Shown piece by piece: positions 24,645-29,820 of a DNA stretch of 64,000 bases. Position numbers and translations under genes: made by a program. The notes under the pieces are model-generated. The model saw nothing but the letters and a program-made list of their open reading frames with translations. It made no database searches and was not told the origin of the DNA. Positions within the stretch are counted from its first letter, which is position 1; each line of letters begins with the position of its first letter. The stretch covers positions 32,076-96,075 of the forward strand of contig CADEDO010000001.1 of assembly GCA_902826115.1 (NCBI GenBank), given 5' to 3'. The stretch comes from an uncultured Nitrosomonas sp. (lineage in GTDB: Bacteria > Pseudomonadota > Gammaproteobacteria > Burkholderiales > Nitrosomonadaceae).

Positions 24645-24833
24645 ATGGATTACAGTTACGAATCTGAGCACACAAAGTTTATGCGTGAATTGCTTGAGAA
24701 AAACCCTCAATTGGAAGAAAAACGGATGGCTGCGCGCGGCGTATGGTGGGATAAAAAACTCGATAAAGAAGAGCAAAAACGCTTTAATGAAGCAAATGAT
24801 CCCATGAAACCGTATGTTTATTTCGGTGGATAA
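24645..24833 (+). CDS. DUF3460 family small protein
   Basis: This 62-aa charged protein (MDYSYESEHTKFMRELLEKN at the start, RGVWWDKKLDKEEQKRF in the middle, PYVYFGG at the end) fits DUF3460. As I recall, that family is largely restricted to betaproteobacteria. No function is known. A weak ribosome site (TAGGTTGAAAA) precedes the ATG. Confidence 0.85.
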   Translation: MDYSYESEHTKFMRELLEKNPQLEEKRMAARGVWWDKKLDKEEQKRFNEANDPMKPYVYFGG

Positions 24834-25429: not shown

Positions 25430-25580
25430 CTAGAGAAGCGCTGATTAATTCAACGAACGTGATGAAGGGCGAGGCGCACGGAACGCAACAACCGAGACAT
25501 ATCAATCTGATAGGCGAGGGAGTGAGTACCGCGCAACGAAGCAATTCGCTCGTGCAGTCAATTAATCAGCGCTTCCCTAG
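25430..25580. mobile_element. 143-bp MITE-like element with CTAG target duplication
   Basis: Terminal inverted repeats AGAAGCGCTGATTAATTCA (25434-25452) and GGAAGCGCTGATTAATTGA (complement of 25558-25576) match at 17 of 19 bases. Both ends are flanked by CTAG (25430-25433 and 25577-25580). CTAG fits the YTAR target of the IS5 subgroup, and the GGAAG end resembles IS5-type termini. The 105-bp interior has no coding capacity. It is probably a non-autonomous derivative mobilised by an IS5-family transposase elsewhere. The right CTAG supplies the TAG stop of the neighbouring SDR gene. Confidence 0.8.
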
Positions 25581-26413
25581 TTATTATTTCCGGATTTCGC
25601 CAGCAATACGTCCATTGCACGCGTGCTGAGTATCCGTTTCAGAAATCCAAACAAATAAGTTGGAAATGTCACATAGTAGCGGGGCTGCGGTTTGGGCGCT
25701 TCCAGCGCATGAATCACCCGCTTCAGCACGGCTTCGGGCGGCAAAGTAAAAGGAACCGCCGGCCCTTGCTTGTTAAGGCGCTTCAATACACCTTCATATT
25801 TCTCACGATGAAAACTGTTTTCGACGTCGATAAATTTTGCCAGCGCCTTGACTGCATTCATGCGGAATTGACTGGCAATCGGTCCCGGCTCAATCAGGCT
25901 CACATGAATATTGCTGCCTCGTAATTCCAGGCGCAGCGTATCACTCAATCCTTCAATGGCATATTTGGAAGCATTATAGGCGCCGCGAAATGGCAGAGAA
26001 ACCAAGCCCAGCACCGAACTGTTCTGGATAATGCGCCCATAACCCTGACGGCGCATGACTGGCACCACAAGATTAGTCAATTCCTGCCAACCAAACACAT
26101 TGGTTTCGAATTGTTCACGCAAGGCATCGCGGCTCAAATCTTCCACGGCACCGGGCAAGCCATAGGCGCCATTATTGAATAGCGCATACAATTCACCATC
26201 TGTACGCCGCATGACTTCCTCAAAAGCAAAATTGATCGAATTGGAATCGGTTAAATTCAGGTGAAAGCTCTCCAGACCTTCAGCCAGCAACATTTCGACA
26301 CTATCGCGTCTCCTTGCAGTGGCAAACACCCGATAACCGCGTGCATGCAATCCTTTGGCAACACAGTAGCCAATCCCGCTAGAACATCCAGTGATTAATA
26401 TGGTTTTTTTCAT
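25577..26413 (-). CDS. Short-chain dehydrogenase/reductase
   Basis: This 278-aa classical SDR has the NAD(P) motif ITGCSSGIGYCVA, the structural FNNGAYG (NNAG-like), the catalytic Ser in QNSSVLG, and YNASK (Tyr and Lys). The arginine after the first strand (TARRRDSVE) suggests NADP preference. The C-terminal region has a hydrophobic stretch (YVTFPTYLFGFLKRIL), as in YbbO/retinol-dehydrogenase-like SDRs. The substrate is unknown. The TAG stop coincides with the right-hand target duplication of the MITE, so the original C-terminus may have been altered. Confidence 0.88.
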   Translation of the reverse strand: MKKTILITGCSSGIGYCVAKGLHARGYRVFATARRRDSVEMLLAEGLESFHLNLTDSNSINFAFEEVMRRTDGELYALFNNGAYGLPGAVEDLSRDALREQFETNVFGWQELTNLVVPVMRRQGYGRIIQNSSVLGLVSLPFRGAYNASKYAIEGLSDTLRLELRGSNIHVSLIEPGPIASQFRMNAVKALAKFIDVENSFHREKYEGVLKRLNKQGPAVPFTLPPEAVLKRVIHALEAPKPQPRYYVTFPTYLFGFLKRILSTRAMDVLLAKSGNNN

Positions 26414-26552: not shown

Positions 26553-26918
26553 ATGGCAAAAATTTTATTCCGACTGCATGGCGTTCCCGATGATGAAGCA
26601 GACGACGTGCGCGAGCTATTAGCTAATCATGGCATTGATTTTTATGAAACATCAGCCGGGAATTGGGGTGTTTCAATGCCGGCTATCTGGCTGATAAATG
26701 AAGATCAGTTTGAGAAAGCGCGCGCATTATTGGATACCTATCAAAATGAACGCACACATAGAATGCGCGCAGAATATGCCCGCCTGGAACGGGAAGGAAA
26801 AAATAAGACTTTTATCGATGCCGTTAAACAAAATCCTGCCCATTTCCTGATTCACTTAGCGCTTGCCGCGCTGGTCATATATTTGTCTATCAAATTAGTG
26901 CTTGATTTGGCAGGATAA
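26553..26918 (+). CDS. DUF6164-like protein with C-terminal membrane helix
   Basis: This 121-aa protein has a soluble ferredoxin-like or DUF2007-like N-terminal half (ILFRLHGVPDDEADDVRELL, then HGIDFYET) and one C-terminal membrane helix (FLIHLALAALVIYLSIKLVL). The first half resembles small regulatory domains that precede a tail anchor. I assign DUF6164 from memory with moderate certainty. The function is unknown. Confidence 0.6.
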   Translation: MAKILFRLHGVPDDEADDVRELLANHGIDFYETSAGNWGVSMPAIWLINEDQFEKARALLDTYQNERTHRMRAEYARLEREGKNKTFIDAVKQNPAHFLIHLALAALVIYLSIKLVLDLAG

Positions 26919-27006: not shown

Positions 27007-28422
27007 TCACCCTTCATCCAGCAATGCCCCCACCAGCTTAGCTTCGATTTCCTGATATTGCGGATTATTATTACGGGCGACAGATGGCTCCTGCCAAGCA
27101 GGATTCTGACGCAAAGTGCTGGTCAGTTTTTTCCAGTTGTCAGGTAATTTCTCGCTATCGGCTTTGTCCACGTGCAAAGCATCCTGAGCCGCATGGCCGC
27201 GGTGCATCAGTTTCTTCAGCAAGTGTTTTTGGCGCAGATACAAGATTTGCACAGTGGCTTCATCGGCGCATTGCCACTGTGTGCCTTTGACGGTGGCCTT
27301 GATTTCATCGCCGTAGCGCTTGAAAGTGGACCAGCCAGCGCCGGCGATGGCGCCCAGTGCGCTGGCCGCACCCAGGCTCATGCCGCCCACCATCAGGTCA
27401 ATGCCGGCACCGGCTGCGGCACCCTTGGCCGCAGCACTACCTACGTCCAGACCGTAGGCTTTGAGTATGCCGGGCGCAAAAATATCCAGTTGCCAATGAC
27501 CGTTACTGACCGGTATTTTCTGAATGGCAACATCTTTATCGGAAAAATTGAAAATCGATAATAAATCGTTGAGACAATGCTGCTCGGCTTTTCTGACAAA
27601 ATCATGCAGCCGGTCTTCAATCAACGAATGAGCGATCAGATTATGTTGCGTTGATTTGGTTTCGCGATAGCAAGCAACGTTGACAATCAACTCGGTCACG
27701 CGTTTGGCGCCAGATAAGCACAATTGATTCCATAACTTGGCACGGAAATCGATCAGCTTTTGCAGCGGCGTGTAATGGGACTCGACCAGCGTTTGGATTT
27801 TCTGATACAAGCGCTTTTCCGCCTCAAAAGTAAACGCAACCGTATCAAATTCAAGCGTCGCGTGCATGTGGTAGCCTGCCAGGTGTTGCCGCCACTTCGC
27901 CAGTTCCTGATTGTGCTCGGCGATAAAGTTAAACACTGGAATGATCGGTTTGGCGGATTGCGTCAGGATGTCCAGTTCGAGGCGATATTTTTCCAGAAAA
28001 GGCTCGCGCACATCAATGATGTATAAAAGAATGTCGCTACGCAATACTTGTCGAATGACTTTGGCTTCCTGCTCCAGTGGGTCATTGACGGAAACATGCG
28101 TGATGAAATGTTCCAGTATTTGCGCCGGTGTCAGCGGCTTTAATTTGGTTTGCAGCTTTTTGATATGCGCAAACAAAGCCCTGGAATCCTCCAATCCCGG
28201 TGTGTCATACAAATTCAGAATCGGCTCGTTGTCAGCCGCGATGGTCGCCTGTTCGACATGGCGCGTGGTGCCCGCAGCGTCTTCAATGACACCAAATTCT
28301 GTGCTGCGCAACATGGTGCGAATCAGCGATGTTTTACCCGTGTTGGTATGTCCGACGACGGCAATATTCAACAACGGAAGCGCATTCGGTTGATGAGGAC
28401 GATGAGGGTTTTTTACGATCAT
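27007..28422 (-). CDS. DUF3482 family GTPase
   Basis: This 471-aa Era-like GTPase has G1 GHTNTGKTSL, the G2 TTRHVE region, and G3 LYDTPGLED. The usual NKxD (G4) is not seen; PVFNFIAEH occupies about its position. The DUF3482 C-terminal part contains Gly/Ala-rich segments (AAAKGAAAGAGIDLMVGGM and ALGAIAGAGW) that may insert into membrane. It starts 3 bases after the DUF2868 stop, so the two are co-translated. The pair is common in beta- and gammaproteobacteria, with no assigned function. Confidence 0.88.
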   Translation of the reverse strand: MIVKNPHRPHQPNALPLLNIAVVGHTNTGKTSLIRTMLRSTEFGVIEDAAGTTRHVEQATIAADNEPILNLYDTPGLEDSRALFAHIKKLQTKLKPLTPAQILEHFITHVSVNDPLEQEAKVIRQVLRSDILLYIIDVREPFLEKYRLELDILTQSAKPIIPVFNFIAEHNQELAKWRQHLAGYHMHATLEFDTVAFTFEAEKRLYQKIQTLVESHYTPLQKLIDFRAKLWNQLCLSGAKRVTELIVNVACYRETKSTQHNLIAHSLIEDRLHDFVRKAEQHCLNDLLSIFNFSDKDVAIQKIPVSNGHWQLDIFAPGILKAYGLDVGSAAAKGAAAGAGIDLMVGGMSLGAASALGAIAGAGWSTFKRYGDEIKATVKGTQWQCADEATVQILYLRQKHLLKKLMHRGHAAQDALHVDKADSEKLPDNWKKLTSTLRQNPAWQEPSVARNNNPQYQEIEAKLVGALLDEG

Positions 28423-28425
28423 GGT

Positions 28426-29820
28426 TTATTGGGTAATGACATGTTCTGCGGGAATACCACAGGCTTCCGCCAGACGAAACCAAGCAATTTCACGTGCGTT
28501 GGTGACAGGCGCTGATGGCTTGCTCAAAAGGATCAGCCAGGGTTTTTCGCTGGTGTGATCGACCAAATCTTTAATCAGGCGCTGCACGCCGCGATCGGGC
28601 AAGCGATGCGCGGCCACGCCCAGCAATAATGGAGTCTTGAGGTGCTTGATCAACGCAATGGCTTCATCGTGAGTGTCCTGATCAATGATGTTCAAACGGC
28701 AAGTCACGGTTTCTGGCCAATGAGTAGCATCATCCAGTTCAATGCCAAAAGCCTGCGCATTCGACGGAATCGCATTGTTTTCCGGTGGGAGCACCACCTC
28801 GGCAGGCTTGATACCGGCATGCGGATCGGCATCAATGACCTTGGCCTGAACTTCTCGCGCCATCAGGCGTTGACGTAATTCAATGTAATAAGGCAAATAG
28901 AGATCCAGCCTGAAGCGGCGCTCACTCCAGCGCTGCATCACCATGGATAAGCCGAGTAGCAGAATGCGCGGCAAAACCCCATAAACCAACAATGCACCCA
29001 TTAAAAAGGTTGCCCAGGCAGTGCGCGTTGCGGCATCCTGCCTGGCGACACCCACCCGGCTGGCAACCGTTTGCGGGTCATTGGGTATGGTTAAGCCCAG
29101 ATATTCCAGCGGCGTGCCCAAAATTTGCGTGAGTCTCGGTAGGCTGCTATCGGGCAGCAGCGTGGTCCCCCAGATGAAATTGTATTGCTTGGCCAGCATC
29201 AGCAATATCAGCAACACCATGCCAGCGCTTAAATAGGTTAACCAGAATTTATGCGTCAACACGCTGACGCGCCACTTGCCGACATCACCGGTTAAGCAGC
29301 TTTCCCACCAGGCACGCGAGGCAAGCGAAGCCATCGTGGGGTCTTTCTTTTGTCGATAAGGCAGCCAACTGGCCAATTGCGCGGCAATGCCGGTGCTCAA
29401 GCTTTGTAAATTGAGCGTAACGCCGGTGATCCACAACAACAATGAAATGGTATTGAATCCCAGCAGCACGGCAAGTAGCCAGTAAATATTCAAAGTAGAC
29501 GATTCACTGACTGCCTGACTCGCTGCCAGGCCGCCCAAAATTGCAGCAGCGCCTAGGCAAATCCGATTTACACGGACAGATTGTTTCTGAGGTTGCTGCA
29601 ACGCATCTTCCAGCGCATTATCGTGAATTAAAAGATTGGCACGCGTGACCAGCCGACGCATGAAATCCGAGTAGTTGAAGTCACTGACGGGTTGCCCCGA
29701 CATCTCTTTGATGCTGGCATACGATAATTCTTCCGCTTTACTGGACTCAATTTTGCGCAATTGCTCAATTCGCACCAAATCGGCGAATTTATATTTGTTT
29801 ACTGACATTCTGCGACCCAT
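28426..29820 (-). CDS. DUF2868 membrane protein
   Basis: This 464-aa protein has an N-terminal soluble part and about four membrane segments (GAAAILGGLAASQAV; IYWLLAVLLGFNTISLLLWI; LSAGMVLLILLMLAKQY; FLMGALLVYGVLPRILLLGL). A cytoplasmic C-terminal domain ends LAEACGIPAEHVITQ. This matches DUF2868, the usual partner of the DUF3482 GTPase encoded directly downstream. Translation could begin at 29820 or at the in-frame ATG 29808; neither has a strong Shine-Dalgarno. Confidence 0.85.
   Translation of the reverse strand: MGRRMSVNKYKFADLVRIEQLRKIESSKAEELSYASIKEMSGQPVSDFNYSDFMRRLVTRANLLIHDNALEDALQQPQKQSVRVNRICLGAAAILGGLAASQAVSESSTLNIYWLLAVLLGFNTISLLLWITGVTLNLQSLSTGIAAQLASWLPYRQKKDPTMASLASRAWWESCLTGDVGKWRVSVLTHKFWLTYLSAGMVLLILLMLAKQYNFIWGTTLLPDSSLPRLTQILGTPLEYLGLTIPNDPQTVASRVGVARQDAATRTAWATFLMGALLVYGVLPRILLLGLSMVMQRWSERRFRLDLYLPYYIELRQRLMAREVQAKVIDADPHAGIKPAEVVLPPENNAIPSNAQAFGIELDDATHWPETVTCRLNIIDQDTHDEAIALIKHLKTPLLLGVAAHRLPDRGVQRLIKDLVDHTSEKPWLILLSKPSAPVTNAREIAWFRLAEACGIPAEHVITQ

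Follow-up and report, generated by a model that had tools for sequence, protein, structure and literature searches.

Among described mobile elements, the IS5-family (YTAR) MITEs resemble the element reported here in being short and non-coding, in having inverted repeats that start GGAA and YTAR target duplications, and in the presence within the genus of IS5 transposases with similar ends. The present element is unlike them in having a covarying core common to MITEs with other ends, and in being enriched on stop codons. REP sequences are palindromic gene-end repeats that can alter mRNA stability. The present element differs from ERIC and REP in its sequence and ends, and in taking the stop codon itself as its target. 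ERIC sequences are also described as palindromic gene-end repeats able to alter mRNA stability in the accessible part of a review (PMC10969869), which also reports that RNase III processes Correia transcripts. Correia/NEMIS elements of Neisseria are, like the present element, hairpin-forming MITEs, and their terminal inverted repeat (TATAGTGGATTAA...) differs from the present ends. QMITE2 of Coxiella is reported mostly from 3' untranslated regions, and an effect on the C-terminus of enhC is discussed; it differs in its variable duplications of 7-11 nt, and no stop-codon targeting is described for it in the accessible part of that source (PMC5896051). Searches of an open-access literature library, including the accessible parts of PMC10969869, PMC5896051, PMC6382973 and PMC2229807, gave no description of a Nitrosomonas MITE, of a core common to different ends or of stop-codon targeting.

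The window is the whole stretch of Nitrosomonas DNA analysed, 64,000 nucleotides long, and the features of the locus are collected in Table 1. The locus probably represents an IS5-type MITE on the pre-existing stop of a short-chain dehydrogenase/reductase (SDR) gene, from a widespread, stop-enriched family with a covarying core, kept most likely as a 3'-end hairpin.

Table 1. Features of the locus and of its neighbourhood (positions in the window).
Feature	Position	Strand	Basis or remark
DUF3460 gene	24645-24833	+	small, conserved; near the element
Lipoprotein-like gene, 161 codons	24935-25420	+	runs toward the element, with the core in sense
Left target-site duplication, CTAG	25430-25433	.	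sequence; YTAR duplications at other copies
MITE, 143 bp	25434-25576	+ (folded strand of the core)	sequence; other copies
Left terminal inverted repeat, 17 bp	25434-25450	+	outermost base A, consensus G
Conserved hairpin core, common to MITEs with other ends	25452-25559	+	model R1, 99.6 bits
Apex motif CGAGACATATC-N5-GATAGGCGAGG	25493-25519	+	invariance in the alignment partly imposed by the search pattern
Right terminal inverted repeat, 17 bp	25560-25576	-	
Right target-site duplication, CTAG	25577-25580	.	CTA at 25577-25579 is the SDR stop TAG on the minus strand
SDR gene, its stop the insertion target	25577-26413	-	Pfam adh_short, E 1.3e-38
DUF6164 gene	26553-26918	+	small, conserved; near the element

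The initial annotation had placed a 143-bp element between CTAG duplications, with the SDR stop inside the right CTAG and the left CTAG 9 bases past the end of the lipoprotein gene, and the sequence agrees with it on all three points. The 19 bp that it gave to the inverted ends shortened to 17 bp, 16 of them exact; the ends are inverted as described, and the mismatch is outermost (A at the left, G at the right, read inward). The ORF list holds no transposase ORF within the 143 bp, and the element, being short, non-autonomous and bounded by inverted ends, is a MITE. Its RNA folding energy corresponded to z = -5.2; together with the further copies and their YTAR duplications, this shows that the element is no chance pattern. 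A Pfam search with the lipoprotein-like ORF gave no match.

The SDR stop was not reset by the insertion. An SDR orthologue was present in 24 of 25 same-genus genomes (own included) and in 11 of 12 genomes of a second set, and in all 35 same-genus orthologues the stop lay at the same residue or at most one or two codons away. The element was absent from the SDR end in 32 of these 35, with the SDR end alike. The initial annotation had proposed that insertion reset the SDR C-terminus and had itself named relatives with the same SDR end and no element as evidence against this; the 32 orthologues are such relatives, and the proposal fails. The position of the TAG at the edge of the element could suggest a new stop that shortened or changed the SDR C-terminus, a reading rendered extremely improbable by these orthologues and by the equality of the duplications: both read CTAG, so AAC-TAG was already there before the insertion. 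The SDR protein is unchanged because the 4-bp duplication kept a stop on the SDR side.

The SDR and lipoprotein-like genes were convergent neighbours in 19 of the 35 same-genus loci, and elements occurred in the spacer between them in four genomes (the own genome, G027, G013 and G029). G027 shares the insertion of the window, in the same relative orientation, with 94.7% flank identity over 680 bp and a core of 95 bits; its SDR gene is cut by a contig end and stands outside the 35 orthologues. The G013 copy lies on the same SDR stop with a TTAG duplication, in the opposite orientation (core 44.8 bits), and the G029 copy lies 16 bp past the end of the SDR coding sequence (core 98.7 bits). This spacer was thus entered independently at least three times (window and G027, G013, G029), and two of these insertions hit one and the same stop.

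In the copy count proposed as a check in the initial annotation, the own genome (3.09 Mb, 123 contigs) yielded 27 matches. Of these, 22 are of full length and 5 are truncated at contig ends, and matching YTAR duplications flanked 16 of the 22 full copies. Matches were found in 24 of the 61 genomes searched (own included), and the sole plasmid match was to a Nitrosomonas record (86.6% identity). In the single-contig relative G028 the element end occurred in 89 forward and 88 reverse copies with at most 2 mismatches. IS5-family elements of the genus have similar ends and YTAR duplications, and the transposases of IS with both features scored above the NF033581 (IS5) cut-off. The assignment to the IS5 (YTAR) type is upheld by the multicopy state, the YTAR duplications and these elements. 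As for the other proposed check, an IS5 element with matching ends, the genus has elements with similar ends and the own genome a truncated one: an IS cut by a contig end terminates in CTAG followed by GGAAACGCTGAATAATTC, and its transposase fragment scored 145 bits (NCBIfam IS5 cut-off 140); among assembled full-length IS of the own genome, none had ends within one mismatch of those of the MITE. The complete relative G020 carries a recently expanded IS5-family IS of about 1,191 bp with YTAR duplications (L492-L507), with paired ends in 15 of the 16 fetched copies (L501 having no end pair).

Insertion sites were compared in the Nitrosomonas set, 158 distinct elements from loci fetched from the own genome and from its relatives within the genus, with the loci of G055 left out. 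The 94 elements with identical YTAR duplications were used; 53 with unequal duplications and 11 with equal but non-YTAR duplications were dropped. A stop was called when, on the reconstructed empty site, an ORF of 80 codons or more had its stop inside the duplication, with genes called by in-house ORF rules that are weakest in GC-rich loci. All P values are nominal, per single test, and several tests were run.

These MITEs are enriched on stop codons. The 94 insertions comprised 21 at stops, 65 intergenic and 8 in ORFs, vs 43, 561 and 891, respectively, for the remaining YTAR sites in these loci. Among non-coding sites, 21 of 86 insertions were at stops vs 43 of 604 other YTAR sites (odds ratio 4.2, P = 5e-6), and the enrichment was similar with ORF cut-offs of 60, 100 and 130. 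With target letters matched, stops accounted for 20 of 84 insertions vs 5.6 expected (0 of 20,000 draws as high), two more insertions having been dropped from this test as possibly shared, one of which (L224) shares just 220 bp of flank with L013. Of the 35 insertions located 0-60 bp from a stop on its downstream side, 20 were on the stop itself vs 8.7 expected (P = 1e-4). In convergent spacers, 11 of 18 insertions were at stops vs 16 of 71 comparison sites, and tandem gene contexts held 50 of the 86 non-coding insertions. An age difference between stop copies and other copies was considered and rejected, both being equally close to their nearest relatives. The autonomous IS with similar ends (16 copies, 15 in G020 and 1 in G027) lay at no stop, in 9 intergenic sites and in 7 ORFs; with 0 of 9 non-coding copies at stops, the sample is too small to set it apart from the MITEs (P = 0.20).

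An ordinary selfish MITE, whose insertions at stops survive since the protein stays intact and gene ends are safe, and whose hairpin serves transposition alone by joining the ends, not RNA, is a credible reading that we do not favour. The rarity of insertions in ORFs is what purging predicts, and the lack of stop preference of the autonomous IS, with its share of copies in ORFs, and the equal apparent age of stop and non-stop copies also fit. However, gene-end safety alone fails to explain why stops are preferred over YTAR sites 1-60 bp downstream.

The initial annotation had further suggested that the element may provide or remove a transcript end. A transcription terminator serving the convergent SDR and lipoprotein genes would agree with the position between them, the strong folding and the excess at stops in convergent spacers, but it is unlikely, as neither strand of the element has a GC-rich stem followed by a T run and non-coding insertions are mostly in tandem contexts; as an intrinsic terminator the element gained no support, though it may act as an RNA hairpin at the 3' end.

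The core covaries. The nhmmer reference set held 40 references, after ten loci had been left out because of long inserts or truncation. The window and 37 of these references made up the core alignment of 38 cores, for which the search pattern fixed the apex. RNAalifold gave 18 pairs for the 38 cores, 9 of them with compensatory changes. Paired cells amounted to 96.3% vs 85.5% in shuffles and at most 39.1% in slid controls, and double-change cells to 77 vs 23.5 in shuffles. The invariance of the apex is partly due to the search pattern, which left free the outer helix, the site of most compensation. An Rfam search of the element gave no match to a curated family and nothing near a gathering score.

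The number of G.U cells exceeded that of A.C cells on this strand (36 vs 5, with 25 of the 36 G.U cells from two pairs), and the core lay sense in 36 of 50 tandem pairs of the Nitrosomonas set and antisense in 14 (P = 0.003); the G.U count and the orientation tests were devised after the structure was known. At stops in tandem pairs of the same set, the core was sense in 15 of 20 (P = 0.04). With other end kinds it tended to be sense in tandem pairs (17 of 24, P = 0.06) and was unbiased at stops (13:9, P = 0.52). The core of the window is antisense to the SDR gene. The sense excess in tandem pairs is also left unexplained by gene-end safety alone, and the preference of G.U pairs for one strand speaks against a hairpin used in transposition only. 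Stops exceed nearby downstream sites, wobble pairs favour one strand and the core leans to the sense orientation; together these findings suggest that the hairpin also does something in the mRNA, and the core would then have a role at the RNA level.

Homology of the core to Correia/NEMIS, which would make this a Correia-like family, is suggested by a layout alike by eye (AGACA, a 4-bp stem, a 5-base loop, a 4-bp stem and GG...CGAGG). It is improbable, since nhmmer gave no match at Correia copies and the similarity found by covariance model R1 was below significance (1 of 6 Correia copies, 13.1 bits, E 0.73).

The same core occurs between other ends and in other bacteria. G055, from another family of the order, has it between three kinds of ends. 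Model R1 recovered the 22 own copies and, among 274 genomes taken from the class, gave matches in 33, the own one included. Viral contigs with the core numbered 0. A scan with the apex pattern gave at least 118 stretches. Genome labels among the matches listed included Nitrosomonas, Gallionella, Rhodocyclaceae, Accumulibacter, Halothiobacillus, Geobacter, Nitrospirae, Blastocatellia and others; many of these genomes are metagenome bins, and single odd labels may be misbinned contigs. Of 84 rows 79 were usable, and among the matches listed their ends were 27 window-like, 14 AGAGGTTGTGAA, 10 CAGGCTGTTGAAAAAC, 12 GGGCACCTCGAAAAACC, 5 GGGAACCTCTAG, 2 others and 9 unassigned. That the covarying core is conserved while ends vary between lineages points to a possible role besides transposition.

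Partner IS were seen for three end kinds, A-like (L493, L100, L076 and L090), CAGGCCGTTGAAAA (L094 of G055) and GGGCACCTC (L083), and those of all three kinds (A-like, C and D) exceeded the cut-off of one NCBIfam IS5 model. By eye, ends of different kinds have a TGAARAAA-like inner part in common. The ends had at first been taken as unrelated and swapped; on these two grounds they may instead have diverged slowly alongside IS5 subgroups, a course at least as likely as swapping. At G055 L094 (1016-2588), a core-bearing MITE with CAGGCTGTTGAAAA ends adjoins an IS5-family IS of the same end kind. In G088 (L457-L463) the same core occurs with two end kinds (AGAGGTTGTGAA and GGAAGCTCTGCA) and two target motifs, and in L360, L312, L334 and L298 additional sequence separates the outer helix from the apex, which looks like nesting of elements.

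Stops were also overrepresented with the other ends, in a test of 71 insertions assigned to end kinds A, B, C or H. Neither the 12 that lacked the target motif nor the 9 that lay within genes or at an edge entered the stop and intergenic counts. The CTSAG duplications of AGGTTGTGAA-type MITEs contain TGA on one strand; these MITEs had 12 stop and 5 intergenic insertions vs 5 and 16 at other CTSAG sites. Counts of stop and intergenic insertions were 5 and 6 for CAGGCTGTTGAA ends (6 and 27 at other sites) and 3 and 0 for GGAAGCTCTGCA ends (3 and 44 at other sites). Pooled, non-window ends were at stops in 20 of 31 insertions vs 14 of 101 other sites (P = 1e-7), and window-kind ends of the same set in 7 of 19 vs 19 of 174 (P = 0.006). 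With a simpler gene rule and the apex-scan loci alone, AGGTTGTGAA-type and CAGGCTGTTGAA ends singly did not reach significance.

As we would reconstruct it, a non-autonomous IS5-type MITE inserts into the existing SDR stop, where CTAG fits the YTAR target, and the 4-bp duplication leaves a stop on the SDR side, with the protein as before. The covarying core is kept while ends and target motifs (YTAR, CTSAG) vary between lineages, and the different ends seem to follow different IS5-type transposases. The core tends to lie sense to the upstream gene, and insertions at stops are most likely tolerated or favoured as hairpins appended to the 3' end of the mRNA. The excess at stops would arise by targeting or by retention; a target motif that holds a stop trinucleotide makes insertions on stops harmless. 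If stop insertion is the rule for the family, it would be a clear case of a transposon whose insertion is rendered harmless by its target motif, through which the stop is rebuilt, and a natural route for one 3'-end hairpin onto many unrelated mRNAs. A widespread family of mobile 3'-UTR modules, in which a conserved RNA hairpin with IS5-type ends installs itself on stops and regenerates them, lies preferentially sense and has an RNA function independent of the transposase, is a doubtful extension of the same data; in it, exact landing on stop codons would result from target motifs that contain TAA or TAG (YTAR) or TGA (CTSAG).

On contig C35 of the own genome, two copies lie 1.26 kb apart (27950-28095 and 29353-29500; L007 1504-1647 and L020), with a carbonic anhydrase gene (Pro_CA) between them. 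The first copy has unequal duplications (CTAG and TTAA), each ending a different long convergent open frame, and the outer CTAG duplications of the pair match each other. This arrangement suggests recombination between MITEs or a composite-like move.
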